In this document: positions 19,200 through 61,271 of the stretch, one piece after another
How the letters are laid out: each line of letters opens with the position of its first letter
Position numbering within the stretch: the first letter of the stretch is position 1
NCBI GenBank assembly: GCA_032358255.1
Contig: JAULBX010025375.1
Coordinates: 1 to 62,534 of the forward strand
Length of the DNA: 62,534 nucleotides
From: Heterotrichella gracilis
Lineage: Eukaryota; Sar; Xanthophyceae; Tribonematales; Xanthonemataceae
Direction: 5' to 3'
Notes under the pieces: model-generated
What the model was told of the DNA's origin: nothing
Databases searched by the model: none
Seen by the model: only the letters and a program-made list of their open reading frames with translations
Program-made: the position numbers and the translations under genes

Positions 19200-22100
19200 C
19201 TAGAATTCGCAGTGTCCAGGGAAGCGCGGGAAGGGGATGACATCCCTGATGTTCTCCACCCCTGTGCTGAACTGCACCAGGCGCTCAAACCCTAGCCCAA
19301 ACCCTGCATGGGGCACCGACCCGTACCGCCGCAGGTCCAGATACCTGCACGCGAGCAGGCACACAACCCTCATCAAACATTTCTGGCCAGCAACTTGCAG
19401 CTTACTTTGTGGTACATCCAGTCGTGGTGCATATGTGGTGGAGAGGTTATGCTACTCGCCATGGGCTATGTAGTAACCCCTAAACGCAAACGTGGCCAAG
19501 CAAATTCAGTGTGTTTCCTTTGCAAATCAAGGTCAGTGAATCACTAACTCCCCATTAGTAGAACACACACCCCCTCCAACCCCACCCACGCACCACCAGT
19601 ACTCCTCTGAATCCACCCTGCCACCACCACCATCCGAACCTCCCACCCCCACCCACACACCACCAGTACTCCTCTGGTTCCACCCCGCCACCACCATCCG
19701 GACCTCCCCCCACCCCCACCCACGCACCACCAGTACTCCTCCGGGTCCAGCCCCGCAGCCACCATGCGCTCCATGAGCACATCAAGCCGCTCCTCCCGCT
19801 GGCTACCCCCCATCAGCTCACCCACCCGGGGCACAAGCAGGTCCATGGCGGCAACGGTGCGCCCATCCTCGTTCAGCCGCATGTAGAAAGCCTGCAGGGG
19901 GAGCGTGGGTGCGGTGGCGGTGCTGCTGTGGTGGTTGTGCTGGTGGTGGGTAATGTGAGAAGGAAAAGAGTGTGGTGCGTGCAGTAGGACGAGCATAGGA
20001 CTGTGGGATTTTGTTGGGTGCACAATGGCATGCTCTCAGAGAGCGCACAGGATTGCGTAGGATTGTTTTAAGCCTGTATGCAGGGATTGGGTGGTGCTCA
20101 AGGGGTTAGCACTCCTCACAAATCCCTGGTAATTGACCCTCCCCTCCTTCCCCTACCTTTATCTCCCTTGGGTAGTCGGTGACCATGAGGGGGGTGCCCT
20201 TGAACACCACCTCGGTCAGGTAGCGCTCGTGCTCGCTCTGCAGGTCGGCGCCCCACCGCACAGGGAACTCAAAGCCGTGGCCAGACTGAAGCAGCAGCTC
20301 CACGGCGCGCGTGTAGGTCACGGTGGCAAAGGGCTTGTCAACCACGTCCTGGAGTGCGGGGTTTGTGGAAATTTGATAGCGAAAGGGGTTAGGGTTTCTC
20401 TAGGGACGGTAGCCCCAACCCACGCATATGGGTCATGGTGACAGTGGGCTTGTCAACCACATCCTGAGGGTGTGAAACATGCCACGATTAAGGGTTATAG
20501 GGTGCAGCAGTTTATAGGTTGCAGCAGTCAGCCGCCATGTGTATGTGGCAATGGGCCGCTCACCCGCGTCCTCGGTTTTAATTAGGGTTTGGGTTCACTT
20601 TTGTAGTTCATGGTGCACCAAAACACCTACAACCCATTAAGGTTGCGGTGGTTAAGGGCTTGCCAGACCACCTCCCTGAGGTGTGCGGTTTTCAGGGTTT
20701 GGCTTTTATCTGCTCACTGCACCTGGTTGGCCATTCACCCACCCACCCACCCACCTGCAATCGCTGCCGCAAGCCCTTCTCGTACTGCGCCTCAAAGAAC
20801 GCCAAGTCCCCCGCACAGTGCTCCAGGATGTACTTGACACAGTGCTTGAGGTAGGCCTCTGCGCATGCCATGTCATCTGCCAGGTCTGCAAATGCCATCT
20901 CAGGCTCGATCATCCAAAACTCCGCTAAGTGGCGGGCTGTGTTGGAGTTTTCGGCGCGGAAGGTGGGCCCTGCAAACAACCCGGGGGGGGGGTGAGAAAG
21001 GGAGCGAGTGTTTCCAGTGCACTTTTGGCATGGATTTGGCAGTGGGAAGGGTAGTGGAGGCATGGGCATGCGAGGGTACATATGAGAGGTTAACATTGCG
21101 TGTGCGATGCAAGGAGCCTACAAAGCAGCATGCGCAATTTTGGTACGCATGTAATGGGTTTGGTATTTGTGTGTGCGATAGGTCCACCCCAGGGGTTGGC
21201 GGAGAATAACTATGTTCATTTCCTTGACTTATATGAATAAGATTAAATCAGTACAAAATATGTGATGATGTGAGACGATTACACATTTTCCCAGCAAAAC
21301 ATCTTATGGTTTATCTGTAAACAATTATACGACTGCCACGCACCAAACGTGTACACATCCCCCAGGGCCGTGGCATACATCTCCCCGTTCAGCTGCCCAG
21401 ACACCGTCAGGTAGGTGGGCTTGCCAAAAAAGTCGCCGCTGTAATCCACCTTGCCTGCTGACGTCAGCGGCAGCCCCTGGCCAGCGGCAGCGCGCGCCTC
21501 TGCGTCTTGGAGCTCGCCCTTGAGGGCCAGCAGAGTGTTCACTGCCTGCTGCATCTGCAGGGGATGGTGTGCGGGGGGTGAATGGTCAGGGCGGTAGATG
21601 GTGCGCACGCCGGGGTCATGTGTGACTGGGGTAAGGGATCAGTAGCAAAGCTGTCGGTGAAACGTTTGTTTTCAAGTTGGGGTACACCTGATATTCCATA
21701 TGCAGCTGTCCCTATTATGCTTCCTCTCGGGACCGGAGTTGCCCTTCCCAGGATTGTGTGGATGCCCTTCCACGAGGATTCCGGCTGGTAACCAACCATT
21801 CAATTGTACCATTCAATTACATTCCTGTTTTGCATTTTTACACCTACCTACGCCTAAATTCTGGCAAATCTACCAAGTTTGTTTCTGGTTTTACACCCTA
21901 CCTGCGCCTTGATTTCCGGCAGATCCACTAGATTCCCCTCCTTCTTGATTGCCTTGAGCGCCAAGCCCTGCGCCTCCACCTGCTCCCGCAGCGCCTGCAG
22001 CTCATCCCCAGTGGGCACACCCCCTGCCAGCGCCTTCTCATACTCACTGATCATGGTGGTTACCTACGCAGGTGCCACGTGGCATTCTGTCAGCGACAGG

Positions 22101-24140
22101 GGTGAATGAATCGATCAGAGTGAATGTAGTAGGCATTTCCTTGCAAAGCCGGGTGAGCGATTTACAATGGCGCTAGGCGTTTCCATGAGGCGAGGAAAGC
22201 CCCTGCGAAACTCCCACAGCTAAATGATGGTAATTTAGCAGTTTCCCCCCTGCCAGCGCCTTCTCATACTCACTGATCATTGTGGTCACCGGCACAGGGT
22301 GCACATAGCTGGTGGGCTGTGTGCGCATATGCATGAGAGAAACCGCAATTGGAAACTCCCACAGTAAGTGCATATATGGTACATGCGCCCATGCATGCAT
22401 CGCCATGAGTGGGCGCAATTTGATACTCCACCCTCCTCACCGAGAACCCTAAACCCTAATACCCTTTTCACCTGGAACATCTCCCCCAGCCCCTCGCAGC
22501 CCGATGCAGACCGCTGCAGCGTGTGCACATACTGAAAACCCTAAACCCTTCTCACCTGGAACATCTCTCCTGCCCCCTCGCAATCCGAAGCCGATAACAG
22601 CGGCGTGTGCACATACTGGAACCCATTCTGCTGGAAGAACTGGTGCGTGGCAAAGGCCAGGGCGCTGCGCACGCGCATGACCGCGCCGATGGTGTTGGTG
22701 CGCGGCCGCAGGTGCGCCACGCTGCGCAAAAACTCCAGGGTGTGGCGCTTTTTCTGGAGCGGGTAGGAGGCGACGTCGCAGGTGCCAACCACTTGGACCT
22801 CCTCTGCTTTCAGCTCCACCTGGTGTGGTGTGGTGGGTGTGGTGGATGTGAGTGGTGTGGTGGATGTGGGTCATCACTTGGCTGGAAGAATGCAACTGGG
22901 TACAGTAGATTTGGAGAAATGCATGGAGGGCAACGCCACCAACATCTGCCAATGCCACCGCCTCAGCCTCATGCAGCCGTTGAGGCATGGACATGCTGGG
23001 TGCGTTTGGAAAACACATATACAACATATTGGATAATTTGGCCACATTGCCTGGTGAACAACTGCAGTAAAAACGGTGGTCAAGGATGCAAAAAGGGGTA
23101 CTTGAAATATGCAAATTTAATGCTCGCCATGGCATGGCATGGAACGCCCGTTGGCATCATTGCATGCAGCAGTGCTGGGCATCCCAGTCCCAGCGAGGCT
23201 ACCATCGCGCCATCTGCCACCACACCATCACAACCTTCACATTCCATCCCAAAAACTAGATGCTGTACCTTTTGCTTGCCTCCCGGGGACTCCACCAGGG
23301 TCCCTTTCACCATCACGGCCGCCCCCGTGTTGATGCTGCCATCCTCCAGGCACTCATAGCCAGGGGTGCCCGGCTCCACAACCACTTGCAAGCCGTTCAG
23401 CAGGGATCCGTCGTTCACCTGAACCGCACCAATGGCATCCGAATGAGTCTGCTGCCGGGCCGGGCTAATGCCATGCCACAAACCCAGCATTTAGCGAGGT
23501 GCTGGTTTGCACCGTGCTAGATGAGGCTGCTACAAAGCAGGCTGTGGTGTGCATGTGCAGCGGATGTGTATTATCATTACCTCCATGAAGGAAAAGGTCT
23601 TTTGATTGCGCACTGTCCGGACCCACCCTTGCACTGTGTAGGTGTTGCCTACCAGCGATGCACCTCCATCCTCCCCACCCTGCAGCAGCAGCAACACCCA
23701 CATTAACCACCAGATAGCAGTTGAATTTCAGTGGCATTAATATTTACTTGTGGAGGAAAGCAACCCACTCAGCCCAGTTGGGCTTCATTCTCTTGTGCAC
23801 CATGCCCATGCTGGGCACTTGCCGTGATCTCGCGCACACGTGTCCTCCGCTTGGTGAAGCTCCGGGTGTTGGTGGAGAAAGCTGACTGTGGTACGCTTGT
23901 TGGGGGGCTGGCAACAGCACTTTCCACACCAGCCTGGCTGCAAGTGGTCCTCAGGCAGCGAGCTGTGGTGGAGGTGAGGAGGGTCCTGCTGTGCACTTGC
24001 TGACCCACCCTGCAGTGGTATGCTGCACTGCCTGCAAGGTACTGGCTACCGCTGTGTTGTAACCGTCTGAACACGCTCCTTGCTGTTCTGGCAACCTGGC
24101 CCACCTGCTTGGTGGCAGTGCTGTGTGCAAGCCTCTGCAT
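19200..24140 (-). CDS. asparaginyl-tRNA synthetase with WHEP insert, organelle-type leader
   Basis: Class IIb AsnRS, charging tRNA-Asn. Exons 23823-24140, 23581-23679, 23269-23418, 22556-22819, 21902-22063, 21344-21554, 20755-20969, 20157-20348, 19728-19891, 19200-19344 close to 639 aa. Residues 1 to about 106 are Arg/Ser/Thr-rich with almost no acids, like a plastid or mitochondrial targeting peptide. An OB-fold anticodon domain follows ([20 protein letters not shown], about 119-200). The class II core has [12 protein letters not shown] and [14 protein letters not shown], motif 2 ([20 protein letters not shown]) and motif 3 ([12 protein letters not shown]), ending FPRFPG-x-CEF as in plant AsnRS. 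Between [12 protein letters not shown] and [22 protein letters not shown] there is a WHEP-type helical hairpin ([30 protein letters not shown]). Intron 1 appears to use a GC donor (ACG/GCAAGT); the nearby GT sites break the frame. Five introns carry junction copies. Confidence 0.93.
19580..19712 (-). repeat. two extra tandem copies of the AsnRS exon 9 donor junction
   Basis: The true exon 9 end with its GTGCGTGGGTGGG donor (19713-19765) is followed by two further copies at 19646-19712 and 19580-19645, period about 67. All contain GAGGAGTACTGGTGGTG plus the donor. The first copy keeps one base change in the donor (GTGTGTGG). Confidence 0.9.
20418..20690 (-). repeat. diverged copies of the AsnRS exon 8 acceptor end
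   Basis: The best copy (20418-20473) matches the exon 8 start (20305-20360): CCTCAGGATGTGGTTGACAA against TCCAGGACGTGGTTGACAAG, continuing for about 50 bases. Two weaker candidates lie at about 20535-20580 and 20641-20690. A TTAGGGTTT tract sits between the true junction and the copies (about 20388-20396). Confidence 0.7.
21842..21878 (-). repeat. diverged copy of AsnRS exon 5 donor end
   Basis: The exon 5 tail with donor (21896-21935) is repeated at 21842-21878 with about 70 percent identity (GATCTGCCGGAAATCAAGGC against GATTTGCCAGAATTTAGGC). Confidence 0.65.
22247..22290 (-). repeat. copy of AsnRS exon 5 start in the upstream intron
   Basis: Nearly identical to the true exon 5 start (22021-22063): both contain ATGATCAGTGAGTATGAGAA and GGCGCTGGCAGGGGG. 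The copy lacks an AG acceptor just before it, whereas the true exon has GCGTAG, so the copy is unlikely to be spliced. Confidence 0.9.
22472..22534 (-). repeat. copy of AsnRS exon 4 donor end separated by CCCTAAA tract
   Basis: The last ~63 bases of exon 4 with its donor are repeated after the true donor. Both have TATGTGCACACG/C..CTGCGAGGGGC..GAGATGTTCCAG and GTGA. The separator is AAAACCCTAAACCC (plus strand), and another CCCTAAACCCTAAT tract follows the copy at 22446-22460. Confidence 0.92.
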
Positions 24141-24911
24141 GGTTATTGTCTACACAGGTGACTTGGCTGAAACCAGCTGGTATGATGGAAGGCGTCCAGC
24201 CTAGGCTAGCAAGTAAATATATCTCAGGGAGAACCAGGGCTGACGTTATGTACCGCGCTGCTACTGCAGGAACTGATACAGAGCTAGAAAAGTTGAGATG
24301 CAAATGGTGGGTGCCCAGTACTGCCGTTTGCACAGCGCTCCTGGAGCACAGGGTGTCAAGCAAAAGCCGATACTGCAATGAGGCTTGTATTGCGGTGCTG
24401 TTCACTGCTTCACGGCTTGCAATCTGCTGTGCAATGCGTCGGTACTGCCCAGTTTGCAAACTCTGTGGCGAGCAAAGCGCCCAAGTGGGAACATTTGGAC
24501 CCTTGAGCTGGGGGTGGGTCAATGTGCATTGCCGGTACATTTTGCATTGTGGAGGGTGGGGGCAGAATTCCTAATATTCGAACAAAATATTTTTAAACCA
24601 ACCTAAAACAGCAGCACCCTGTAACAAGGTGGGCTGCGGCGATTGAAGCGAATACCTGTGCCGAGAGCGGTGCAGCAGTCTATGCGTGAAGCCTTCGCTG
24701 GGGTAGACAACTGAGTGGGTTGCCACTTGCATGCATACAGGACCCATTGCATACTGCCGCCAGGCATCCCCCCAGTTTGGAGCCTCTGCAGCCCCTTGAC
24801 CATACGGCGCTGCTAACGTGCTATCCAGCCAGCGTGCTCCCTGTCACACCCGGTACCGTAACTGGGTTGTAGCCTTGGCCATCAGGCGCATCTTGCCCTA
24901 TATTGGACGCA
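24141..24911. promoter_or_regulatory. divergent intergenic region between AsnRS and importin-5
   Basis: About 0.77 kb between two head-to-head start codons. Open frames on both strands here (to 164 aa) have no recognisable protein and are treated as chance. Promoter role is inferred from position. Confidence 0.4.
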
Positions 24912-27900
24912 ATGTCTGCGGCAGACGTGCAAGCCATCTTGAGCGGGGACCAGGGCGCCTTTGAGCAGATGGTGCAACTGCTCATGTCCCCAGACAACGC
25001 CCAGCGCTCCAAAGCGGAGGAGCTTTTCACGACGTCCAAGCAGAACGTGGACCTGTGTGCCTCGAACCTTGTCACCGTGCTGCGAAGGTCACCCCACCTG
25101 GAGTCCCGTGCTCTGTCTGCCGTGCTCCTGAGAAAGGTACTGCCCTGTTTTTGAGGCACGCACGCTTGAACGGATGTGGAACACTGCCCAGAGGGGCACT
25201 TGCCCACTGCTCGGTAGGTCAGGTTGACAGCATGTGTATTGGGGACTTGCAGGTGCTGACCAAAGATGATCCCTCACTTTGGCCAAGGCTCGCCCCCAAC
25301 TCCAAGGTAGGCACCGTGTTTGGAACCAGTCCAAGGAGATTTCACACTATTGTGCACTGTTTGCTTCACACAGCACGCACTGCAAGGCGGCATGTACTGC
25401 TACTGGGTGCAAGTGGTGATGGAGTACCCCCCCTCACAGGCGTTTGTCAAGAACGAGCTGCTGGCATGCATACGGGAGGAGCAGCAGCGCTCCATTGTAA
25501 AAAAGGTATGGGGTGCACACAAAGCAAGGGTCAAACTGTACAGCATGCCATGCGAGGGAACCTTTTGGGCCATGCTGGCTGTCAGGCGCTGCACACGTCC
25601 CCGCACCTTTGCTTGATGTCTTTGGTTGCTTTTGTGCCTGCTGGGTATCTTTGGCTTGGGGTTGACGACTACAACAGGCAGGAGTGGCAGTCATCTTCCT
25701 GTACGCGTGCGTGGTGGCACCTGCCATGGATGCGCAACCACTATCAAGTGACTGCCATGTCCTCTCCACGCGCCCCCATTGGGTGGGCCACCCACCCACC
25801 CGTGCACCCACCTTGCCCAGGTGTGCGACACAGTGGCAGAGCTGGCTGCCGGCATCATCGAGGAGCAGGGCTGGCCGGAGCTGCTGCCCTTCATGTTCCA
25901 GTGTGTGCAGTCCGGCGTGGAGGGGCTGATGGAGAGCGCGCTGTCCATTTTCGCGCAGCTGGCGCACTACGTGATGTCGACGCTGCAGGTGATGCCCCCG
26001 CTGATACCAATGCCCTAGTCCTCGCTCATGTCTTAATTGATGGCCATGCTCAGCCCATGATCATGTCCCTTGTGATGCTCGTGTACTCGTTCAAGTGCGC
26101 GCAAGCCCTCACTCATGATCGTATCCATGGTTCCATGCACTCCCCTAATGTCCACTCTGATTTTCCCCCTGCAGATGTACCTCAGCATGCTGTTAAACCT
26201 TAACCCTAAACCCTAATGCTAACCCTACACCCTGCAGGTGTACATGGGCACGCTGCACCAGGTGCTTGCTGGCGCCCTCACGCACCAGAGCATGAACGTA
26301 CAGGTGGCGGCCATGCGGGCGGCCACCGCTTTCATAGAGGTGCGGGTGGTGGTGGTGGTGGGTGTGGGTAAAGCGAAGTGTATGTGGTGAGGCACACCAG
26401 CCCCCAGTGGTGGTGGTGGTGGTAGGTCAAGCAGTGTGTGTGGTAAAGCTTCTGCTGAGATGTCGACGTTGGTCAATGCTGCCTTCTCAGGTGCAGCCGC
26501 ATTGCTCGGGAGTTGAGGAGCGGCACATCATTGTGGTTGATTGCATGCAAACCCGAGTAAAGTGCTTGACATTAAGCTACCTGACCAATTGCATGTAGAG
26601 CCAATTGACGTCGGCGCCACATGTGCAAGACTGGCTGCTAACTTGGCTAAATTGCTGGAATGCTTGTACAATGACTGCATGGCATCAACCAACCGACCAC
26701 TAGCATTGCCCAGGAGCTTGAGAGCCCCAGCGACCGCGACAAGTTCCAGGACACAATCCCCGGGATGCTGCAAGTCATTGGCAGCGCGCTGAACGCAAAT
26801 GAGGAGGTGCACGCGCAGGACGCACTGGAGATGCTCATCGAGGTGGGGCACGCTAGGGTTGGGGGCCACATGGGTAGGGTTTTGGGGCCACATGCTGGGG
26901 GTGTGGCGCTGGAGGTGCTGCCAGGGTTTCTCAGTGGCTAATGTTTAGATGTCCATGCATGGGGCATGTGCACTTTGCTGGAATTTGGGGTCCATGCATG
27001 GGACATGTGGCCATGCTGGGACTTTGTGGGAGGGCTGTACACATATGCACAGGGCTGTACACATGTGCATGGGACATATGCATGCATGCAGAAGCATGGC
27101 ATGGGCCTGGTGATCATGGTCCAATTGACACATGCTACGGCTGCGGAGGATGTGCGTACTGATATCTGGGGAGGCCCCATTTTGCATGCTAGAGATGTGG
27201 AGCATACACGCCTACTAACTCATTGGCCAAACCTGCCTCGCCATGCATGCACATGGCTGGCGCATGCGGTGACGGCTGCCCCTGATGCTGACGTGGCACC
27301 TGTGGTGGTGTGTGTGCGCAGGTTGCTGAGGAGCACCCGCGCTTCCTGCGCAAGTACCTGGTCCAGGTGGTGGGGGCAATGCTGCAGGTGCGTGGCGTGA
27401 TGGGGGGCCGGGCATGAAAGGGTCGGGCTGGATCAGGGGCTGATTGATCTGCACAGGCTCTGCCCAAATGGGCGAGGCACCGGCATACAACAGCATCACC
27501 ACACAGCCCCACCAATCGCATCACCATCCGCGGCATGCACACGCCTCTGCAGCCGGCAATCAGGTTCCAACTTGGCATGCAAGCGGGGAAGGTGCATCGC
27601 GTGCATTAAGCACACGCAAAGAATGCAATATCTGCCCAATCATCCGGCAAAACTGCACAGAAAGTCTTGCCACGCCATTGGCCGCTCCAGCTTTGCACGC
27701 ATGCCCTACTCCATCCTTAAAACACCCTAATTACCGAACTGAAAACCCTGAATTAAACTCTGAACCCTGCAGATCGCCGAGGCGGAGAGCCTTGAGGACT
27801 CTTCCCGCCAGCTGGCAGCCGAGTTTGTGGTCACGCTGTGCGAGGCGCGTGAGAAGGCCCCTGGGATGATGCGCAAGCTGCCTGACTTTCTGGGGAAGCT

Positions 27901-30900
27901 GTTCCAGATCCTGTTGGGGTTCCTCCTGGATGTGGAGGTGAGCAGAGTGGTGTAGGGTTTAGGGTTTTGGGGAAGCTGTTTCAGATCCTGCTGGGCTTCC
28001 TCCTGAATGTGGAGGTGAGCAGAGTGGTTTTGGGTTTAGGGTTCAGGATTTTTAGAAGCTGTTCCAGATCCTGCTGGGATTCCTCTTGGATGTGGAGGTG
28101 AGCAGAGTGGCAGACCTGGCGGGTGGTGTTTGTGCATGGGCATGGGAGGATGTGGGTGGCTGGATGCATGTGGGTGGGTGTGGGTGTGGGTGGATCTCAA
28201 AGTGCGGCACTCATGTCTGGTGCACAACCGGGTACATGCAAGTTGAAGTCAGCGGGTTGGGGCACAGGGGATGCCTCACAAAGGCAATTGGGAGTGATTG
28301 CACTGTGTGCGGCTGGGTGGGGCAGTAGGAGGCACTTGCAATGGCTAGGTGCCACGCATCCCGCCTGCAGTGGCGCAGTCTGCACCCGCACACCCACCGC
28401 ACCTACCGCCGCCATCACCCACCCCCCACCCCCCACCGCAGGACGACCCCCTGTGGCACAACGCCGACACCGACAAGCACGAGAACGAGGGGGAAGGGGA
28501 ACTCTATGACTTTGGCCAGGAGTGCCTCGACAGGGTGGCCATTGCCCTCGGTGGGAACACCATCGTCCCCATGGCGGGCCAGGCGCTGCCTGCCCTGATG
28601 GCGGATGGTGACTGGAAGAAGCGCCATGCTGCACTGATCTGTCTGGCCCAGATCGCCGAGGGGTGTGTGAAGGTCATGCTCAAGGGGATGGACGGGCTGG
28701 TGGCGCTGTGCATCCAGGTGGGTGGTGGGGTGGTGGTGCATGGTGGCGGGTTGCATGGGAAAATAGTGGGAGTGAGGTTTTGCCGTGCGCAGAGGTGGGC
28801 ATGTCTCGGCGCAAGGCCAGGTGTAGGGGTAAGGAGGTAAATCTAGGGGTAACACGCCACAATGCACAATGCAAGGACGCGTGCCCAACATGGCACATGG
28901 ACATGGGACTGCCTGGCGAATGCTTCCCCTCAGCCGCAAAGTAGCTGTTTTACAAAAGTAAAATGAAGGACTTTGCTTTGTATTATGAATACTTATTATA
29001 CAAGATCTTTAGTAAAATGCCAAACCCGCCCCCCACCTGCCACCGCAGGGCCTGCAAGACCCCCACCCCAAGATCCGTTGGGCAGCCTGCCAGGCGCTTG
29101 GCCAGATGTGCACCGACCTTGGGCCAGACATACAGAAGGAGCAGCATGCGCGCATTCTGCCGGGGCTGCTGGCGGTCATGGACGACTTCAACAACCCTAG
29201 GGTGCAGGTGGGGCATTAGTTGGTGGAAGGTGTGGGCGTCATGCGTGGGATGGTGTGGGTAACCACGGGCGTTAAAATTATACAACTGTGGTTCTGACAC
29301 CTTGAGTGGCAGCCATGGACGGCTTTTCCAACAACTGGCGGTAACACGTGGAGCGGGTGGGGTGGGCAGACGCAGTATAGGGTGCAATGTGGTGCATGTG
29401 ACCCCTCGAGGTGGCTGACGCATGCACTCCCCTGTGGAGCATGGTGTGGCTGTGGCTAGTGCATGTGGGCACATGCGTAGGGTTTAGGGTTTAGGGTATC
29501 TGCATGGACGGGGAATGTCACGCACAGGCATGGCCATTGATGTGGGCGTATCCCTCATGTTAGCATGGCCATGGACATGCACAACCATTTATACAAGGGA
29601 TTCCTGAAGCCTTTTCCAATCATGCTGTGTCCTCACCCGTAAATTTCGCACCCTCCTTCCCCGCCAGGCGCATGCTGCCGCTGCTGTGGTCAACTTCAGC
29701 GAGAACTGCGACCAGGATCTGATGGCGCCCTACCTGGACTCACTCATTCACAAGCTGCTGGCGCTGCTGCAGAACGGGAAGAAGCTGGTGCAGGTGCGGG
29801 GTCTGTGGTATGGTGGGATGGTGGTGGAGGGGTGCACGTGGTGACTCGTCCATGGGTTGATACTGTGTGTGGCGCCATAGCAAGGTCGGTGTGAGTAATG
29901 TGCAAGTGCTACTCAACACACCCAGTGGCCCTACAATGCAATCTCCACCTTAACAACCCCACCCACACACCCCACCAACCCCTCCCGCAGGAGGGCGCCC
30001 TCACCGCCCTGGCCAGCGTGGCCGACTGCGCCCAGGCCGAGTTTGTCAAGTGGTACGACAGCGTGATGCCGCTGCTGAAGCACATCCTGCTTGCCGCCAG
30101 CGACAAGAGCCACCAGCTGCTGCGCGCCAAGGCCCTGGAGTGCATCAGCCTGGTGGGCATGGCGGTGGGGCGAGACAGGTTCAGGGCGGACGCGCAGGAC
30201 GTGATGCAGTTCATGCAGATGCTGCAGGTGGGTGGTGGTGGTGGAGGGGTTTGGGGCTTTGTGGCGTTGGCGGTGGTGTTTGGTGATGCAGTTCATGCAG
30301 ATGCTGCAGGTGGGTGGTGGTGGGGTGGGAGGGGGGGGGGGGGGTAGGCTTGAGTTGCGATTGCCGTATCCAATACCTGCCCCTGCCACTACACACACAA
30401 GCAAATGCACAGCCCCCACCCTTGCTAAATTCTCCCACCTCCCCCTCTACACCTACATGCCACCCATCTTCCCTGTATGCCCCCCTCCACTTTTCACCTT
30501 CCTCAAATTCCCCCATTCTTGCCTGCAGAATAGCCAAATGGACCCCGACGACCCCACCGCCAGCTACATGCTGCAGGCGGGTGCGCGGCTGTGCAAGTGC
30601 CTCAAGGAGGAGTTCCTCCCCTACCTGTCGGTGGTGATGCCCCCCCTGCTGCAAGCGGCGCAGCTTAAGCCGGATGTGCATGTCACTGACGCCGACTCGG
30701 ATGGGGATGAAGGGGACGACGGGGATGAGGAGGTGGGGATGGGAATGATCACGGTGTACCATGGTGTTGTTTATGACCTGTAATGTCGATGCGGATGGGG
30801 ACGAGGGAATTGAAAATCTTGTCAAATCGATGCTTGTGATTAAGTCGATTATCACTGGCAAAGTGCATGCAAGTAGTTGGTAATGGGTGCAGAGATGTGC

Positions 30901-34644: not shown

Positions 34645-35002
34645 CCAGCGCGCTGTGGTTTGCCACAAGCCGGGACTTTGATGCACGGGTGGAAATGAGT
34701 GTGCGCTGTATGGCCATCAGGCCTGTGGTGGCCTATTGGGCCAAGGGGTCCCAAGGCCTGTGGTGGCCCATCGCCCTTTTGCATGCACGGTGGACAACCA
34801 CGCCAAGCGGTGTCCCTGCGCCCCCCAGTGGTTTGCCACAAGCCTGGAATCAGATGCAGCGGTGGAAATGGTTTGTGTGTCGTCTGGCCATCAGCCCTGT
34901 GGAGGCCCAACAGCTGGCATCATGGCCCCAGGGCCGGGCACCTCGCCCTTGGAGTATGCACGGTGAACAACCACGCCAAAGCGATAACGTTGTGCGCCCC
35001 AC
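34645..35002. repeat. 174-bp period tandem duplication
   Basis: GTGGTTTGCCACAAGCCGGG at 34654 and GTGGTTTGCCACAAGCCTGG at 34828 start two diverged units; the match continues through GCAGCGGTGGAAATG-like, GGCCATCAG and ATGCACGGTGGACAACCACG-like blocks. Intergenic between importin-5 and eS28. Confidence 0.88.
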
Positions 35003-35320
35003 TGATGTGCATATGTATGCTCGCCAACTGCTGTCAGTCCTGCTGGCGTTTGCTGTGCAGGGCAGGTTGAATCCTGGGGCAGTCCTAGCAGTATTCTGCT
35101 GTGCATCCCCCCCTAGGCGTTCTCAGAGGCCAGTGTTCACCCAACTGCCCCAGTGCACCGCTGACTGGACAGCGATGCTGACCCCCTTGCACAGGTGCGT
35201 GTGGGCCATGTGGCCTTGTAGGGCCTTGGCGCAATCTAGGCATTGTAGATAGTGGAAGTTGTTACAGTATCACCCCAAACCCAACCAGGCTGGGTTTCTC
35301 AGCAAGCATATCGCACAGCC

Positions 35321-41262: not shown

Positions 41263-41372
41263 GTAGGGACGTCACCCTTGAGGGATTTTTACCACTGTCA
41301 ACTCAACTCTCCATCCAAAGTTCAAGGACCTCGTCAGGGCCTGGCCTGCTGGCCCTCACCAGACTTTGAAAG

Positions 41373-50700: not shown

Positions 50701-51160
50701 AACACTCTGCAGTGGTAGAATAATCGAGGACGACCATCAGGTGTGCATTTAAATAACGGGGGCTACCAATGGCCGATTTGCACACGTATGCATGCATGCA
50801 TTGTGGGAGTTGCATGCAATAGCTCCGAAAGGCCGGGACCGTGACATCCGAAAGCACTGGCGTTACGAATATCACACCAGTCTTTGCAGTACCTACACCC
50901 TCCTTTGCCACCCTGTGCTCACACATGTGAGCTCTGTTCCGACAATCACAGCCATTTCAGAGGTTCCCCAGGACAGCTGTTTGGCCAGTCACATGTTGAA
51001 GGCACACACTACCTCGAAACACCCTTGTGCAACTTGTGCAAATGTGGTGTGTGCTCCCCTCCATGGCCATGCCTCTATCACAGTGCACCCCCCACCCACC
51101 CCCTCCTCCTCCTCCAATTTCGACACCCACACCACCTTTGCCGCAGACCCCCCTGTCGCC
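47798..51160. other. 3.4-kb intergenic stretch, no supported gene
   Basis: Divergent region between the wall-protein gene and the membrane-protein gene. Open frames at 48645-49079 (plus; Cys-rich), 48336-48803 (minus) and 50792-51418 (plus, overlapping the next gene) show no domain or splice consistency. CCCTAAA/TTTAGGG tracts occur at about 47495-47515 (in the adjoining intron) and 49588-49608. Self-similar blocks near 49920-49990 are weak. Confidence 0.5.
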
Positions 51161-54100
51161 ATGACTGACCAGGAGCCCCTCCTGCCCCCTTGGCACATCC
51201 ATCGAACCGCCACCCTGTACTATGACGCCGAACAAGGGGAGGACAACCAATCAGAAGCCTCCTTTGTCACTGCCACTGGGGTGGGAGGCAACGGGAGCCC
51301 TCGGGTGATGGTGCGCGCCACACCCTCGAACCCTACTAACCAAACCCTACAAATCCTCACCCCTAAGCATACCCTACACCTGTCAGGCCAGCGGGATGGG
51401 GGGCAGCGGGAGCCCTAGGGTGCTGCACATCCTTTGAACACTACAAACCCTAAGCCTGCACAATAGCGCATAGCCTCAACCCTACACAAACACTACACAC
51501 GGCACAGAACCCTAGCTCGGCACCCTGTCGTACATATGCGGGACACCCTCATACCCTACACACCTCAACCCTAAACAAACCCTTCCCTGTGGTTCTAACG
51601 TCTTGTGTACCCCTTTCCAGGACACCCAAGCAAGCCCCAGCAGGTCCCCCCCTGGCCCTTCGCCATTGCCCCCCGCTTGTGGCGCAAATGCCACCTATGG
51701 GGACAAGTACTATGGAATGGTAAGGAAGGATGGGACCCTTCTAAGGGTTTCCAGACCCTTGCTAGGGGGGTGAGGTTTGTAGTACAAGCTTTTCTACACA
51801 GGGTGATACTTGTGGTAGGGAACCCCAGTTGGCGTCTAGTAGAAAACTCTTGTTCCTTTGGGGGTTCATACATCCCTGTATCCATTGTGTAGATCCGAGC
51901 GTTTTGGCACTCAACCGCTTTGCAAGGTCCCTAGACCCTAGACCCTACCTCAGGACTTTTTGTCATACCGGGGGCCCTGTGCCCGCTAGGGTTGCCAAAT
52001 GAAAACGGCCTGAAAACCCTAGACGCAGTGGAGCTAGGGTTCAGCCCCAACACCCTCATGGAGAATCTAACCCCTTACCAGGCAGGGTTCCATAATTAAC
52101 TATATAACTACAGGGTCCAGCTCAGGTCCAGCTCCACAACCCTAACCAAGGGTTCATTTGCCCTGCAGGTGGCCTGGCTGACCATGCTCCTCTTTGGCTA
52201 TGCCTTTACTCGAGGCCTGTGCTGGCTAGGGTTGCCAAACGACGGCATGAAAACCCTGGATGCGGTGGAGCTAGTTGACGATTTGGCGCAGCTGGCGGCG
52301 TTTGGGGCCATTCTGGGATGGTTTGTGGGGATCACCCATCGCGAGCGCTTTTTCTACCTTTTCGCAGGGTGCGTGTGGGGGGTGAGGCAGGGGATGTGGG
52401 ATGGGCCCACATGACATGCGCGCTGTCGAGTCCAGTGGTGATGCCCTGTGTCAATTAGACCTTTTGGTCAAGGGCATGCATGTGTGTGTTACCCAAGGCT
52501 CAACCGAACAAATGTAGGCGAATGGATTTGCCCAGGATTTTGTTGGGGTTTGAACGCCCTGCCAGTGCTGCACTACCAGCCTAGGGTTTCGTTAGGGTTT
52601 GCGCCAACTCCTCGCCAACAGAATAATAACAGAATGATGATGAAAGCGCGGCGCAACGCGTACGAGCCATCCCGCCAACCCTGTCCCACTTCTGCAGGGG
52701 CGACTTCCCCTTGATCTTCTACGCCACCATCCCCCTGTTTTCCGCCATTAGCAGCGCCCCCCCCCTGCGCCACAGCCTGGTGGATGTGCACTCATGGGGA
52801 CCCGCCATGTGGCTGGTGCTGGTGGCAGGTGAGGACCATTTCTCTCCACGATATCATCATGTATTTCCACAAATTTTCCTGGGCCCTTAGCCTGGTGAAG
52901 TTGTCCCGGGGGATGTGCAAGGTGAGGAAGCAGAGTACATGTTTTGTGTGGTTTTGTTTTGTGGGCGTCAGGTCGCTGGGTGAGAATATGCTGCACCAAG
53001 GCCTGGTGGGTGTGCATGCATGCGGACCCGCCATGTGGCTGGTGCTGGCGGCAGGTGGGTGGAAGGTCGCAATGAAACCTATTGTGTTGTAAAAACCGTA
53101 TGTAGTAAGAGTTTAATAGATGAACATGCAGGGACAGGTATCATGGTCTCTCACATGCACCTGGGGTTGGTTGAGACCTAACTCCACATGTGCCCATGTG
53201 TGCAGGTGTGTGTGGTGCGGGTGGGGCCATATGTTGGCATGTGCGCCACGCGTGGGGGTGCCTGGATGGGGAGGATTGGGGGCTGTACATGGTCAGCAGG
53301 GGGGTAATACTCATGTAAGTAATGGAAGGGGGTGGTGAGGGGAAGCATGCATGTGGGTGCCCCTGCATTAAATCATCCTTGGTCACCAGGGGGTTAGTAC
53401 TAGTGTGGGTAAACCGGGAGTGTGGGTGGGGGACCTGCATGTGACCATACCTGCATATACAGATGCGGGCTTTTCATCATTATAAAGTACGTTTTTCACT
53501 TTAGTGATATTCCATGTACACAACGGATGTATGGTAGTCTGTCATGCATCTCAATCAACACCGTACCAACAGCACTGACCTAGGCAGCTGACCATATTTC
53601 CTGGTCCAGGTCTACCCATGCCCTGTTTGCACACACACACACACCCTTCCAACCCTTCACAGCCCCCTCACCTCATCTCCCTGTTTACCTCCCCAGGTTT
53701 TACGGCTGTGTTTTCCTCACCCTGCACCTGCACCGGGGCTACACCTTCCACCTGCACCACCTGTACCTGGGCTGGCTACTGGGGGTGTGGGCGGAGTTCA
53801 ACACTAGGGTTTCCAGCATTACCCTAGCGGTGGGCGCAGGCATCTTCGTGCAGGGTGAGCACTGAAAACCCTAAAGCACTACCTACCTAACTAATCATAT
53901 TATCCATCACCCTGGAGATATCTTGCACCAAGGTTGCGGTGGGCGCAGGCAGCTTCGTGCAGGGTGAGTAGAGGTGGTGCCGTGTGTTTGGAAAACCCTT
54001 AGGGGAAAATCTAGGAGGCTAAGTAAACCTACACCCTTCAGAATTTCCATCATTGCGCTCGCAATATCGCAGCCATTGTTGTGCCATGCACGCCAACCGT

Positions 54101-54475: not shown

Positions 54476-55972
54476 CCCCTGGCCTAGGGTTTGGAAAGAG
54501 GCCGGACTTGACGTTGCTCTGCCCCTGCCATCGCGATGACCGCAAGACTAGGGGTCGTTCAAGTAACTGGCAAAGTTTAACCACGCATGACATCCCATTG
54601 GGCAAAATCATGACAGGACACTACATTGGCCGCCATTTGCCAATGGCCTGGTACTACCGGCCGGGACCACTGGCCATTATGGTAGGTTACTAGGTGGCAA
54701 ATTGCACGCCGTTTGCTGAGGGGCAAATTATTTGTCCCAAGGGCCCATCCAACTTGGCAATTTGCACGCGGTCACCGTGGACAGAGAGGCCCATTCGTGC
54801 ACTTAACAACAGTTGTGAAGTTACTTCGTCATCATGCTGCAGCAGTGCATTTTCTGATTCATGCTACCTCGAAAGGTCCCTTAATTTTGGCCACTGTAAC
54901 AATTTACTCAATGATTTACATGGCCTCTCAGTGACTCACGGCTGAGCCAGTGGCCACTGCCAGTACTCACGTGCATGCAACACCCCTGGGGCCATCATCC
55001 AAGAGCCCCAGTATCTACCTATGCATTATGTGATGAAGTGCCGGCGTATTTGGGCTAAGTGATTGAATGATGATGCAGAGCGAGTCGGATGTGTCTGGTT
55101 GGTTTGGGTTTATCCGTGGCACGGGATGTTCTGCCCAACGATTGATGATGGTACACAACGTTAATAAAACCAACGGCATAGTATACCTATATGTTTGTAG
55201 CATGGAAGGAAGCATCAACGACTGAATGGAGGAAAATTGGATGTGATAAAGCTGGTGGGGTGACCCCTTTGGGGCACCAGCCTGTGTGAAACCCTAAATA
55301 ACCTAACCCGCCAGCAGCCAGAGGGTTGCAACCCCCTTGGCTACCTACAAAATGCCCCCTAGCAGGGTGGGTCTACGTGCGTTTAAGGGTTGGTGTCCAA
55401 GTACGGAAGACCCTACCAGCCCCGTGACTAACCATTGCAAACGACCCTAAAACAACCAGTCCCAACATACCTGCTCAAGACAAAAACAAACACCCTGCCT
55501 TCAACCCCCGCAAACGAGGCACATGCCAAGCCTGAAAACCCCAACACAAACCCCAAAAATCAAACAAAAAACCCTACAGGAGCACATCCACCCTGCGCCC
55601 TGCCCTGCAAGATGGCCAGCCCTCTCACATTACCCCTACCCCGCACCCCCTCCCCGCCTAGGGAAACCCACCATGAAGAAAACAGGCCCAACGATGACGC
55701 CAAAAGTGAAACCAACACATTTATTCACCAAATTTGATTCAACGCCAGTGCAATCAACGCACCCACAATCACATCCACGCACCCCTCCACCCTCCAATCG
55801 CCGCCCAGACCCCAACCCTCCCTCCAGCTAACCGCCCCAACCCTAGCCTAGGGTTGCAGTTGGAGGTGGAGGCCAATAGCGTGGCGTTGAGAGCTGCTGC
55901 TGCGCATGACGTTGTGGTTGTCGCTTCCGTCATCACCTTACATCAGCTCCCAATCAAACTGCCCCCCACCAC
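54476..55972. other. convergent intergenic region
   Basis: No supported gene. A/C-rich stretch at 55430-55740 contains many ACCCTA and AAACCCC variants and encodes only low-complexity frames. A truncated copy of the next gene's last exon lies at its right end (55852-55935). Confidence 0.5.
55852..55935 (-). repeat. copy of GAF/TM gene last exon beyond its stop codon
   Basis: On the minus strand, GCGACAACCACAACGTCATG..CTCTCAACGCCACGC..TGGCCTCCACC follows the exon's GCGACAGCCACCCGCGCATG..CTCAAGGCAACCC..TGGCATCCACC. It ends in CTAGGCTAGGGTTGGGG, a telomere-like tail. Confidence 0.8.
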
Positions 55973-58900
55973 TCACGCCGCCGCCCTGTTTGGCCCAGGC
56001 AGCAGCGACTGCATAAACAGGCGCCTGCAGTGGCGCTCGTAGGCAAACAAAAACCCTAGGCTGAAGGTGGATGCCAGCAGGGTTGCCTTGAGGGCGGTGC
56101 CTGCGCATGCGCGGGTGGCTGTCGCCTCCGCCATTTGGGCGCACAGGAAGGGCACTCGGATGGTGAGCGCTGCTACCGCCGCCAGCTGGACGAGTGCCGT
56201 GAGGAACCAGCGGACTTGGACCGAGAACTGTAGGTGGGGAAGAGGGGGGTGAGTGTCAGGGAGAGAGAGGTGGTGGGTTAGGGTTTAGTGGATGTTGTTA
56301 ATGTTGGTGGCTGCCACCTCCGCCAGTTGGGTGCAGAGGAACGGGATCCTAAGGTTTAGGGTTCAAGGATGCCACCGCTGGCAGCTGCACAGCGCAGTGA
56401 GGAATCAACAAAGTTGCACCGAGAACTGCAGGTGGGGGCTGGGGAAGAGAGGGGATGAGTGTCAGGGAGAGGGAGAAGGGAAAATATTTTTGGCGGTGGG
56501 TTAGGAGGGTGTTGTGAGTGTGGGTGGCTGTCGCATCTGCCATTTTGGGCGCACAGGAAGGGATACGTTTAGGGTTGGGGCGGCCATTGCCAGCAGATGC
56601 ACCAGTGCAGTTAAGAATCAACAGATTCGGACCGAGATTTGCAGGTGGGAGTGGGGGGCGAAAGGGGTTTAGAGGAGGTGGTGGGTTTGGGCGGTGGATT
56701 TGAGCAAAGAATCGTGGGTGTTGGGGGAGGGTGCTGTAGAGAGGTTTATGGTTTCACCGTCCGAGGTAAGGTCAACTGTTCACCATCCAAAAACTGGAGT
56801 TAGGGTTGTTCACCATTTGTGCTAGGGTTTTTCTAGGTTTTCCCTATTCACCCACCTGCATGCCCAGCGGCATCATGAACAGCAGCTCGGCCCCGCTGGT
56901 CTTGGCAACCCGCAGCGCGGCGCTGAGTCGGGAGTAGGGCGGGGCGTGTGCGGCCTCGCCGGCGCCAAATGCCACATGGCACACCACGTACTGCAGGTAG
57001 AGACCCAGCAGGAGGAGTTCGCGCGCACCCACGAAGCGGTGGCTGCAAGGGGGGGAAGGGAGGGGGTTGAGGGCTTTGGGTGGCGTTGAATAAGGGCATG
57101 GAAATAGGATGCGTGATACATGGGCTGTTGCCGGATGGTATGCGCTGTGGCGCAGGCGTTTAAATGCCACATGGCACACCACATACTGCAGGTTGGGGCC
57201 AAGCAGGAGGAGTTTGTGCGTGCCCACAAAGCACTGGCTACGGGGGGGAAAAGAGGGGTTACAAGGGCCTTTAGGAGGGCCTGGTGATGCCTGTGTAGTG
57301 CATGGCCTGTTGCCTGCGGCACGCGTGTTTTAATGCCACGTGCCAAGCCGTGTACTGCAGGTAGAGGCCCAGTAGGAGTGGGAGGGAGACTGTTGGCCCA
57401 CCCACCACCGCCAAATACCCCCCCCATCGCCAGCTACATACCACCCACCACCACCACCACTAACCCACACCCCTCACCTCCTTGGGATGAGCAGCGTGAC
57501 GAGTAGAGGTAGTAGCAGAAGGTGGGACGGGGAGTGCAGCGCACCCCCGCTGTTGGCCCACCCCTGCGGCTGCAGCCCCCCCACCACCACGCAGGCCAAG
57601 GCGTACAGGAGGAGCGTCACCACATTGGGCTGCGGGGAGAGGAAAGAGGGGGTCAGGGGAGAGAAGTTAAATCAGTTTGCAGGGGAGGACACAGGTGACT
57701 GCGATACAATGGCCATGCCTGAAGCTGTGTGGTGGTGTTGCGTAAGGTATGGCTGCCACCGCCTGCTGGAATCATAGGGCTGTGGCTGCAACACCCTAAA
57801 CCCTAGCGTCTAAAGTCACGAGCCTCTGCCTCCCCATGCAATAGCCCACTGCAGGCACACAGCTCAGCGCAATACACCATAACTCCAACTCCCCACCTTG
57901 AAGTGCTGGTGCGCCTGCCACACCACAAACTGGCGCTCCGCCCGCCGGTCTATGAACGTGAGGTACAGGGGGTGCAAGTCCAGAGAGAGGGGGCCGCCAG
58001 GCAAAGCGGTCTCGCTAGGCGAAACCTCCTTGGTGGAGCCCTTGGGGGGCGGGAAGGGCGCCTGCGCCATCCCCGCTGAAGAGCTCCCGGCACCCCCCTT
58101 GCGCCCATCATAGAACGCGCCCCCCTTGGGCTTGGAATAGAAGTCCTGGTTACATAGTTGGGGAGATAATCAGCACTTTCAACGTTTTGGACAATCTGCA
58201 AGTTGTGTGGCACAAGCTGTGCAGGGCTGATTGCTGAGCTGGTTTTCCTGCCGGAATGCAAGTAATAAGTAGAAGAACCGTTCTGCAAACCACCGCCTCT
58301 GCATGCGCACACACCTCGTCTTCCCAGGAATCGAGGGAGGACGCCGGGTTCTTGGAGGGGTGGGGGAAGTGGGGGTTGGAGCTCCCCGCGGGGGGGTAGG
58401 CGCGGGTGGGGGGTGGGGGCTGGTCCCCATGGGACTGGCTGGGGATGGGGAGGGCGCATGCCGGCTCTGCATGCAAAAAAGCGCAGAGGGGTCAGCCACG
58501 GAGCAGGGTAAGTGGTGCGCGTGAGTGTGGGTGGGCAGGGCGTGTGTGCGCGTGGGGATGTATGGGCGAGGAGCACATACCTTGCATCAGCATCAGGCCT
58601 CCGCATGCACCGGAGCACATCTGCGCATGTTGCTGCTGAGCTGCTGAGCTGTGTTACACGCATGCACCCACCCACGCACGTCTGGGGCCAGCTGTTGCCA
58701 CCCATTTGCTCGCAAGGGTTTTGTGTCACCGGCTACAAAAGGTGTAGCCCCCTCTTCCTTACCCCTCCACACACCCTGCCGCCTCGCATGCATCTCACCC
58801 CATTCAGCATGCACCCCCCCATCCCTACCCAGATTCCCAGTCCCGCTTTGCACCCCACAAAATCCCTGGTGCCCTTCACCCCCCCCCCCCACACCACCAC

Positions 58901-61271
58901 ACACCACCAGTAGCACCCCTCCCTTCCCTTCTCCTCCCCACCACCCCACCCCCCATCCTACCCACCTGCTGTGTCCGGTCCTGCCCCCTTGGGCTCCGAG
59001 CAGCCCCCTCCTGCATCCCCTTCGTCCTCCTCATCGCCATCCACATCGCAGTCGGTGTCGGTATCTGCGCCGCTGTCATTGCCGGATCCGGGGAAGAACA
59101 CCTGGTGCGGGTGTGAAGAGGTGGATTGAATGCGCGCATGTGCGGCAGTATGTGTGGTGGTATGTGCGTGTATACGTATATGTATACGTATGTGTGTGTG
59201 TGTATCGCGCAGATAATAGCGATGGGTCTTAGTATGGTTGTGCGCGAATAGCGGGTTATCGTGGGAATGCATGTGCACGTGTTCCTTGTGGTGCATATGG
59301 TATTGAACCGCGCAGGGACGGTTATAATTGGCCAGGTTGTAGGGTTTCAGATTTACACAGGGATCTAGGGTTTAGGGTTTACCTCAAGGATGTTGTCCAC
59401 CGTCTCCTGGGCGTCCTGCGCCAGGCTGGGTGCCAGCGCATCCGCCAAGCAGCTCAGGCCACGCACTGTGTCCCTGGGGCAGAAGTGGGGAGGAAAAAGG
59501 GACTCAGAGGGCGGAGCGGGGATGCAAACCCCGCACCCTTTTAGGCAGCTCAGGTCGCACACCGTGCCCCTAGGAGAAGGATGAGGGCGAGACAGGCATT
59601 CAAGGGGGGAATGGGGGCGCTAAAAAGCCGATAATTGTGAAGGGTTGCGCTGCACTGACCAACCCAGCGCTTTGCCGTACTGCCTGCCTCAGCAAGGCAT
59701 GCGATCATGCCCCATGGCCTGCAGTGCCTCAGCATGGCCTGCGGTGTGCGATGCAGCCCACTAGGCGGACTCGCCCCTCCACCCATTCCCCTCCCCACGC
59801 AACCATGCGTGGCGTGCAACCACCAATACCCCCTACACCACCACCATGCTGCCCTGACCCACGCACTGACCTGCCGCTGGCCAACTTTGGGTCAAAGGGG
59901 CCCAGGGTGATGCAGCACCCTAGGGGAATGTGCCCCACATGTCCACTCACCCCCTTCCACACACCCCTTCTATGCAACCAACCGTGGCGTGCAACCATCA
60001 ATCTATGACGTCAACCATTACGCTGCCCTGCAAGCCTTGCAAGCACTGACCTGCCGGAGGCCGACTTTGGGTCGAAGGGCCCCAGGGTGATGCAGCCCAC
60101 CAGGCGCACGTGCCCCTCCGCCCCCTCCCCCTCCCCTTGGTCTGCGTTCCCCCCCTTGTGCTCCGTGTATATGGGCAGGCTCACCACGCTGGAGCAGTTG
60201 TGCAGCTCGGTGAGGTGCTCAAGGTCAAACAGCTTCAGGCCCCTGGGACAGGCAATTTAGGGTTTAGGGTTCAGTTTGGCAACACCCAGTGAGGGAGTGA
60301 GTGACCATCGAATCCAGCTTCAAAGCCAGGTTTGCGGTTCTGGGTATGCCTCGCGTTCAGTTTATGGGCAAGCGAATAAGGGAAAAAGGTGGGTTGTGCA
60401 CTGGGTGCGGTGCTACAGGCCAAAACAGGTTGAGACCCCTGGCGAAGGTTGGTGGGGAGGGGGTGAGCAGCAACACGAAGGGGGGGTGGGCGGAGGCTCA
60501 ACACCCAGCACTCCAAAAGCCTAGGCAAGGCCGCCTCAAGTCAGCGCACTTGAACCAAGACTCCCACCTATCTACATCAGGTAGGACAGACTGCAGTGTA
60601 TGGGTGCTAAAAGACATCCTCCCACCCCCTTATTGTTTGAAAACCCATTTATGGACAACCCATGGATATGGAGGTTTTCAAGCAGGCGTGGTAAGGGCCA
60701 GGGCCAGGGATCTCTGCCCTCCTTGCCTTGTGAGGGCCGCCTTGAAGGTGGTGGCGCAGGGCCGCAGCTTCTCAAGCGCAAACCCCTGGAGGGACTGCTC
60801 CCTTGGCACGAGTGACAGGGTCAGATAGCCCTCGGTGAGAAGGTTGCTGCTTGAGATAAGCACCTCATCGGTGGCAACCACCGACAACCTGCGGGAGAAG
60901 AAGGTGGGAGATTGGAGCCTGGTTTGCAGGAAAGCATACCACCCACTGAGGGATCAACCAGTTGAGAAGTAGAGTGTCCCTGGTTGGTGGTATGGTACGA
61001 ACATGGGTGGTACGACAGTGGCTAGCAGCTCAGCCCTCGCTGTAAAGGACGCTGTGTTGCGATGGGAGGGTGCAAGGGAGGCTGTTGCCTCCGATGGGAC
61101 GTACCCAAAGTACGATCTGCTGGGGAAGAGCTGTTTGAGGGATGTCACGACACTGCTGTCTGCGAATCCCTTGTTGAAGCATGTCGCCAACTGCTGGGCA
61201 CACAACTGGCTGTCGCTGGTGGAATAACCGGGCGACAGCACGTCTGCCATGGCCACGTCAGTGTCCGTCAT
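55973..61271 (-). CDS. GAF-like domain plus multi-pass membrane protein, unknown function
   Basis: Exons 61105-61271, 60727-60888, 60051-60242, 59383-59473, 58966-59101, 58315-58466, 57897-58145, 57478-57629, 56856-57042, 55973-56227 close to 580 aa. Residues about 40-215 resemble a GAF-like fold (FFG-type core: ATDEVLISSSNLLTEGYLTL.., HLTELHNCSSVVSLPIY.., VRLVGCITLGPFD, TVRGLSCLADALAPSLAQDA), as in many algal sensor proteins. A low-complexity acidic then Pro-rich linker follows (about 215-350). The C-terminal half has five or six membrane segments (VVTLLLYALACVVVGGL, LLLLPLLVTLLIP, ARELLLLGLYLQYVVCHVAF, ELLFMMPLGM, FLTALVQLAAVAALTI, TLLASTFSLGFLFAY). Together this suggests a membrane sensor without a visible output domain; inference only. 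The intron after exon 2 seems to use a GC donor (AAG/GCAAGG). ATG 61271 is in frame, but an upstream exon is possible. Confidence 0.72.
56288..56648 (-). repeat. two degraded copies of last exon's start, upstream of it
   Basis: Copies at 56505-56648 and 56288-56432 match the true start of the last exon (56090-56235): TTCTCGGTCCAAGTCCGCTG against ATCTCGGTCCGAATCTGTTG and TTCTCGGTGCAACTTTGTTG, then GCGCCCAAATGGCGGAGGCG-like sequence. Both carry stop codons, and AACCCTAAACCTTAGG or AACCCTAAACG has been inserted inside each. Confidence 0.92.
57155..57392 (-). repeat. two degraded copies of exon 9 start, upstream of it
   Basis: True exon 9 reads CTGCAGTACGTGGTGTGCCA and TGTGGCATTTGGCGCC; copies at 57155-57245 (CTGCAGTATGTGGTGTGCCA, GTGGCATTTAAACGCC) and 57330-57392 (CTGCAGTACACGGCTTGGCA, GTGGCATTAAAACACG) diverge after the same point, about 80 bases in. 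Confidence 0.92.
59160..59212. repeat. TA/TG-rich microsatellite
   Basis: Alternating GTATACGTATATGTATACGT followed by (GT)n, in intron 4 of the GAF/TM gene. Confidence 0.9.
59538..59575 (-). repeat. copy of GAF/TM gene exon 4 acceptor end
   Basis: CTAGGGGCACGGTGTGCGACCTGAGCTGC in the intron copies CCAGGGACACAGTGCGTGGCCTGAGCTGC of the true exon start (59441-59478). Confidence 0.85.
59745..60040 (-). repeat. tandem copies of GAF/TM gene exon 3 donor end
   Basis: The exon 3 end and flank (60043-60140) recur at about 59866-59965: GGCCCCAGGGTGATGCAGC..TTTGGGTC(A/G)AAGG, and ACTGACCTGCCG at the donor. A third partial copy (GATGCAGCCCACTAGGCG, GTGCCCCTCC-like) is at 59745-59800. Unit length is about 175 bases and includes GTGGCGTGCAACCA. 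Confidence 0.85.

Follow-up and report, generated by a model that had tools for sequence, protein, structure and literature searches.

How do stretches of DNA around exon-intron junctions come to be repeated inside the neighbouring introns, often with telomere-like repeats between the copies, and is the splice junction itself a preferred site of such events? The question is raised by a 62,534 bp stretch of algal DNA (contig C287; the whole of this stretch is hereafter called the window), for which a sequence-only reading had claimed at least fifteen such places in five genes. Between positions 19,576 and 60,136, 16 places with local direct copies were found in the introns of five genes, and 14 of them cross a predicted splice junction, in agreement with that claim.

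Local direct copies in introns

The window belongs to a eukaryotic assembly of 68.5 Mb in 903 contigs. The closest named relatives of one protein encoded in the window are from Botryococcus braunii and Trebouxia species (65-70% identity), which, for this one protein, points to a trebouxiophyte-like green alga as the host. The window was analysed together with 250 kb from five other contigs (five 50-kb blocks), giving a sample of 312.5 kb or 0.46% of the genome; the places of the blocks were picked without regard to content, and the contigs were drawn from a list of contigs bearing telomere-like words. Genes were predicted by a hidden Markov gene finder self-trained on the sample, with no benchmark against RNA. 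The model comprised 74 gene pieces with 550 exons (median 150), some tiny ones of which are false, and 483 introns (median 265), and its splice consensus was CAG/GTGAG-like at donors and TGCAG/G at acceptors (the slash marks the junction). Two window genes were aligned to solved homologues, importin-5 and asparaginyl-tRNA synthetase, and six copy places lie at junctions that fit these alignments, four in the synthetase gene and two in the importin-5 gene.

In the synthetase gene (reverse strand) three copies of about 67 bp, at 19,576-19,768, include the donor of the predicted exon 19,728-19,891; this place was obtained in one window scan only and was removed by the complexity filter of the later scan. 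The segment 20,296-20,351, consisting of the edge of exon 20,157-20,348 and of the intron next to it on the acceptor side, is found again at 20,411-20,466 with a weak telomere-like spacer, and another acceptor segment (22,020-22,083) recurs at 22,246-22,309 within the intron 22,064-22,555. The same intron also carries a copy of the donor of exon 22,556-22,819 (22,445-22,624), with telomere-like tracts between the copies (22,536-22,549) and beyond them (22,445-22,459), and thus has copies at both its ends. In those cases of this gene that were checked, the conserved residues are retained by the outer copy. A decayed pair near 21,842, noted in the sequence-only reading, is visible by eye but falls below the threshold of every scan.

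The importin-5 gene (forward strand) contains three copies of the donor region of exon 27,773-27,937 (27,888-28,110), placed by the importin-5 alignment, with tracts at 27,949-27,971 and 28,026-28,051 between them. Further downstream in this gene, the donor of exon 29,991-30,227 is copied (30,201-30,323), and the pair 30,201/30,283, described as nearly identical, was indeed found to match in 41 of 41 bases; at junction 30,227 the alignment is compatible with or without the use of a 9-base piece of the copy. Two of the copies in the first array (27,985-28,014 and 28,068-28,097) have acceptor-like and donor-like sites of their own and were modelled as in-frame 30-nt exons, which together add 20 residues absent from human importin-5. 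At 18,193-18,327 a predicted intron contains an almost perfect TTTG array with about 34 units.

The other places were identified by the scans in combination with the gene model and the tract analysis. On the reverse strand both ends of the predicted exon 46,701-46,854 are copied, the donor with a weak telomere-like spacer (46,558-46,721) and the acceptor with a tract at 46,888-46,906 between the copies (46,826-46,986). The acceptor region of exon 55,977-56,227 is present in three copies with a period of about 192 (55,861-56,691; tracts at 56,278-56,288 and 56,353-56,363 inside), as is that of exon 56,856-57,042 with a period of about 194 (56,957-57,378). On the same strand a weak duplication extends across two predicted exon edges (59,449-59,623), and the donor region of exon 60,051-60,242 is repeated in the intron with a period of 176 (59,750-60,136). 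On the forward strand the donors of the predicted exons 50,993-51,310 (51,265-51,498) and 52,698-52,828 (52,765-53,057; period 226, no telomere spacer) are copied. Copies were thus found on both the donor and the acceptor side, as had been stated. Two forward-strand places show no clear junction crossing: at 51,976-52,274 a segment inside exon 52,169-52,368 recurs in the upstream intron (51,976/52,216), and at 53,827-53,968 (pair 53,827/53,936) the gene model is poor. At the latter place a segment of 33 bp is present twice with 97% identity, and both copies have a donor-like site (CGTGCAG before GGTGAG); the donor and the acceptor of a predicted 108-base intron fall at nearly the same point of the two copies, an arrangement resembling that in the intron gain model of Rogers. 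Clusters at 34,655 (intergenic) and 53,290 (intron only) were left out of the 16.

The pattern is widespread beyond the window. A first scan of the sample detected 86 direct and 2 inverted pairs within 800 bp, as compared with 2 direct and no inverted pairs in locally shuffled sequence. A second scan, run without low-complexity masking, yielded 159 direct and 3 inverted pairs, which the complexity filter reduced to 115 and 1, respectively. Together with the filtered first scan this gave 80 clusters in 312.5 kb, 72 of which have a period below 300 (230 per Mb). The identity of the best pair ranged from 62 to 100% among the clusters; the copies differ in age, as suggested by the sequence-only reading. 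Among 475 predicted introns, 60 contain detectable copies, 61 a telomere-like tract and 21 both.

Telomere-like tracts between the copies

Strict telomere-like tracts separate copies in the window at 22,536, 27,949, 28,026, 46,888, 56,278 and 56,353, and weaker ones are present elsewhere. In the whole sample 92 tracts were recorded (6 with the reversed word), of which 82 are in introns, 8 in intergenic DNA and 2 in exons. Introns make up 48% of the sample bases, and the density of tracts is 0.55 per kb in introns and 0.13 per kb in intergenic DNA, with balanced orientation in introns (43:39). The tracts carry the genome's own telomere unit, because CCCTAAA arrays of at least 6 units begin within the first 7 bases of six contigs (C70, C140, C526, C609, C717 and C770), and because the genome has 834 triplets of CCCTAAA, whereas two other telomere units reach 33 and 8. 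Contig C626 encodes a telomerase RNA-binding domain; the family search for CTC1, a part of CST, gave no match in this genome, nor in any of the control genomes.

It had been proposed that the tracts mark break repair with insertion of telomere sequence between duplicated flanks. Consistent with this proposal, 24 of the 81 intronic tracts with full flanks lie between direct copies and none between inverted ones, the expectation being 3.2 (from a rate of 4.0% among 3,000 random intronic points). No flanking copy was detected for the other 57. Eight further tracts were collected around perfect triplets; three of these are flanked (L001, L002 and L003), and L003 is an exact copy-tract-copy arrangement. 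From the side of the copies, the 65 genic clusters include 19 with a tract, as compared with 5.7 ± 2.25 expected from relocated hulls of like intron content, which bears out the association with telomere-like sequence. Spacers of 63 genic clusters, scored for telomere likeness against random intron, reached p<0.1 in 30 cases (6.3 expected) and p<0.05 in 19 (3.2 expected). The statement that the tracts often sit exactly between the copies proved true of a part of the cases: for 8 of the 24 flanked tracts, the copy on either side begins at a distance of 2-7 bases, but at p<0.1 a telomere-like spacer is lacking in 33 of the 63 genic clusters.

The clusters fall into groups by period. Among those scoring at least 45 bits with a period below 300 (n=46), 27 have periods of 65-125, none 126-153, 16 have 154-201 and 3 have 226-237. 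The 30 genic clusters with a telomere-like spacer have periods of 61-115 in 27 cases and of 154-169 in 3; for the 33 without, the periods are 71-117 in 19, 155-201 in 11 and 226-237 in 3. Telomere spacers therefore belong mainly to the short-period class, and the class around 180 bp is mostly plain tandem duplication. A period of about 180 is close to the nucleosome repeat length, near which the second group (154-201) is situated.

The splice junction as a site of duplication

The claimed preference for splice junctions held on the donor side but hardly on the acceptor side. When pairs were relocated at random in the 312.5-kb sample (2 low-complexity clusters of 55 being removed), 25.1 ± 2.8 junction clusters were obtained, as against only 31 observed; for pairs joining a junction and an intron the values were 11.4 and 21. 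Because junctions are dense, relocation is a weak test for junction crossing, and therefore a positional profile, a simulation of survivorship (donor side only) and the positions of the tracts were used. In the profile, 40-base segments were compared with the adjacent intron. Matches peaked at the donor (32/357, 9.0%), as compared with 24/691 for segments starting 40 and 60 bases into the intron and 2/269 for exon segments starting 110 bases back. Acceptor segments matched in 21 of 366 cases (5.7%), barely above the 13-18 of 336-380 obtained with intron segments. Control comparisons of the donor segments gave 5 matches with the reversed intron, none with its reverse complement and an expectation of 1.9 with other introns; the corresponding values for acceptor segments were 0, 1 and 0.7. 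In the simulation duplications arose anywhere and survived only outside pure exon, the exon copy being kept undecayed. The simulated donor peak exceeded the intron interior 1.1-1.5 times, whereas the observed peak exceeded it 2.6 times and was narrower.

If survivorship alone operated, the tracts should be spread evenly along introns. Counting those of 77 tracts whose start is no more than 30 nt from a splice site gave 23 at donors, where 6.1 are expected (P = 1e-7), and 14 at acceptors, where 6.9 are expected (P = 0.011). Of 21 cases of copies flanking a tract, 16 include a predicted junction, the expectation being 6.9, or 9.2 when detectability at junctions is doubled (P = 6e-4); 3 of the 24 flanked tracts had been dropped from this count for sharing copies with another tract, and the remaining 21 are not all independent, since an array or intron is in some cases common to several of them. 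Within 25 nt of donors the tracts are oriented 11:11, and the donors beside them are mostly strong (26 listed, six scoring below 4.6). A genome-wide count independent of the gene model, with a limit of 12 bases on the distance, placed CAGGTG upstream of TTTAGGGTTTA 205 times, upstream of TAAACCCTAAA 134 times and downstream of TTTAGGGTTTA 67 times (three arrangements counted); chance is about 67 per arrangement, as estimated by extrapolation from the sample, which has only 26 of the repeat words, and tandem groups inflate the counts a little. Some of these matches are in evenly spaced threes, at C23 (72,994/73,106/73,218; 112 bp), C325 (44,952/45,034/45,116; 82 bp) and C409 (80,869; 44 bp), which are likely to be further copy-telomere arrays.

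Taken together, these results attribute much of the junction bias to survivorship and to the slower decay of copies anchored in exons; acceptors show little excess of copies, and a residual preference at 5' splice sites, beyond neutral survivorship, is shown statistically. The reading in which survivorship explains everything holds that short tandem duplications arise anywhere, that exonic ones are lost, and that those at junctions and in introns stay, junction copies being easier to detect because the exon half does not decay; splice sites would then not be preferred at all. The yield of random relocation, the modest donor peak simulated without any preference and the near-background acceptor values agree with it. 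It is, however, opposed by the height and narrowness of the observed donor peak, by the junction-crossing copies in excess even at double detectability, by the crowding of tracts beside donors and by the surplus of CAGGTG before rather than after telomere repeats, and we consider it rather unlikely as a full account. Still less probable is unequal crossing-over or replication slippage seeded by pre-existing telomere-like tracts, with the tract serving as homology and not as insert. There are arrays (C9 4,027; C2 22,196; 22,451) in which each copy has a tract after it, and the tract may therefore predate the duplication there, and the 44-112 bp spacing of genome-wide matches in several groups (C23, C325) is what such a process could leave; but in other arrays the tract is solely between the copies (C8 28,641; C2 40,738; L003), none lies beyond the last copy at 28,110, and the placement of tracts beside donors would be left unaccounted for.

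That tracts and copies are kept for a function in RNA, as splicing enhancers, decoy sites or alternative mini-exons, appears very unlikely. Such a role could fit the strand bias near acceptors (within 60 nt, the coding strand reads CCCTAAA in 15 tracts and TTTAGGG in 5; the numbers for donors are 15 and 13), and also the in-frame 30-nt exons of the importin-5 gene model, yet orientation beside donors is even, the 20 extra residues are absent from human importin-5, and in the synthetase-gene cases checked it is the outer copy that holds the conserved residues. CCCTAAA near acceptors is possibly kept for suiting the branch point or the pyrimidine tract. An artefact of the assembly is hardly credible: two clusters are 100% identical, and one of these is at a run of 100 N (C13 38,286-38,594), but in 78 of the 80 clusters the best pair is less than 100% identical, and most therefore cannot be assembly duplicates; moreover, the pattern recurs in all six blocks. 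The C13 block (the L032-L033 region) has telomere-like tracts besides its identical copies and looks as if the assembly broke there. Templated filler from nearby DNA was rejected as a source, since it would also give inverted copies and only 1 of the 116 filtered pairs is inverted.

Probable break repair and the lengthening of introns

The copies are probably scars of double-strand-break repair: breaks with staggered ends would have been filled in and joined, frequently with telomere repeats added where the ends meet, and the copies would survive where the outer splice site works, with enrichment on the donor side. Two nearby cuts on opposite strands would leave complementary overhangs of about 20-95 bases; if both ends were filled in, not trimmed, and then joined, the stretch between the cuts would be doubled, and direct copies are what is observed. 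In the class with a period of about 60-115, where the copy-telomere-copy order is often seen, telomerase would have added the genome's own repeats at the joint, and a CST-polymerase alpha-like system may have filled the overhang. Since the telomere-end enzymes telomerase and CST-polymerase alpha act on 3' overhangs, extending them and filling them in, one machinery could perform both steps; the suggestion draws on tandem duplications at 3' overhangs that depend on CST (PMC8355091) and on telomere insertion at breaks, in some cases staggered and with direct duplication (PMC2246262, PMC7215372). A copy spanning a junction (these are predicted, with homology support in two genes) would be harmless as long as the original outer splice site is used. 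Coding sequence would tolerate the event only where that site keeps the message, and the inner copies would therefore decay in the lengthened intron. The enrichment just inside 5' splice sites is statistical. A stronger version, which we put forward tentatively as a possibility, is that in this algal lineage staggered cuts occur preferentially at the 5' splice sites themselves and are healed by the telomere machinery. Telomerase would prime one end, the opposite overhang would be filled in, and each event would leave exon end, donor, telomere scrap, exon end and donor, so that introns would grow largely from their own 5' edge by a transcription- or splicing-linked mutation process.

Each step is already known, and the combination, junction copies with telomere spacers and crowding at donors, is a new variant. 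In the sections of PMC2246262 and PMC7215372 on mammalian interstitial telomeric sequences, telomere units inserted at internal breaks are described; at some of these sites the flanking DNA is directly duplicated, and staggered breaks are given as the reason. The present tracts share with them the organism's own telomere unit at internal sites and the direct flank duplication. By the counts given there, duplicated flanks accompany 6 of 130 loci in rodents, 4 of 25 in primates and 3 of 66 in the horse, and the proportion lying in introns (31% in human) is that of a random distribution, whereas here 24 of 81 intronic tracts have duplicated flanks and 82 of 92 tracts are in introns, crowded at donors. 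Small tandem duplications at 3' overhangs depend on fill-in by CST-polymerase alpha according to the passages on this process in PMC8355091; they resemble the present copies in being direct tandem copies of tens of bases that need no long repeats, and there it is the telomere-end complex that does the filling. Telomere repeats, present at the joint here, are not reported in those passages.

Telo boxes of Arabidopsis and rice, for which the relevant part of PMC3022908 proposes telomerase acting on free 3' ends as the origin, have the motif in common with our tracts. As given there, they are enriched in 5' UTRs, and their frequency in introns is near or below the genome average (150.7 vs 155.2 and 72 vs 81.1 per Mb); the tracts described here are, in contrast, more frequent in introns than in intergenic DNA, although the motif is longer and the rates are not comparable. 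In the Rogers model, as presented in the portion of PMC4974935 that deals with it, introns are gained by tandem duplications that carry splice signals. The signals are carried likewise here, but existing introns lengthen and the copies stay intronic. Intron gain of this type was rejected as the explanation: of 472 introns, 11 have similar ends (score of at least 40; 0.2 expected), and the donor and acceptor offsets coincide within 1 base in one of the 11, a doubtful case.

No match for junction copying with telomere spacers in an alga was found in the literature searched, which consisted of titles and abstract openings with most subscription journals outside. Introner elements also supply algal introns with new sequence at many sites of a genome, and the present copies are similar in this respect. 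Introners form dispersed families of like sequence, however, and the 601 bp locus 27,700-28,300, the only one searched for dispersed copies, matched itself alone; for this locus an origin from a transposon or an introner was set aside.

The origin of intron sequence and the causes of intron lengthening are long-standing questions, and here one source can be read from the DNA. The results suggest that introns grow from their edges through DNA breaks mended with the help of the telomere machinery. The scars preserve a record of what telomere enzymes may do to ordinary breaks, and from them follows a claim that can be tested directly, namely a clustering of breaks or insertions just inside 5' splice sites.
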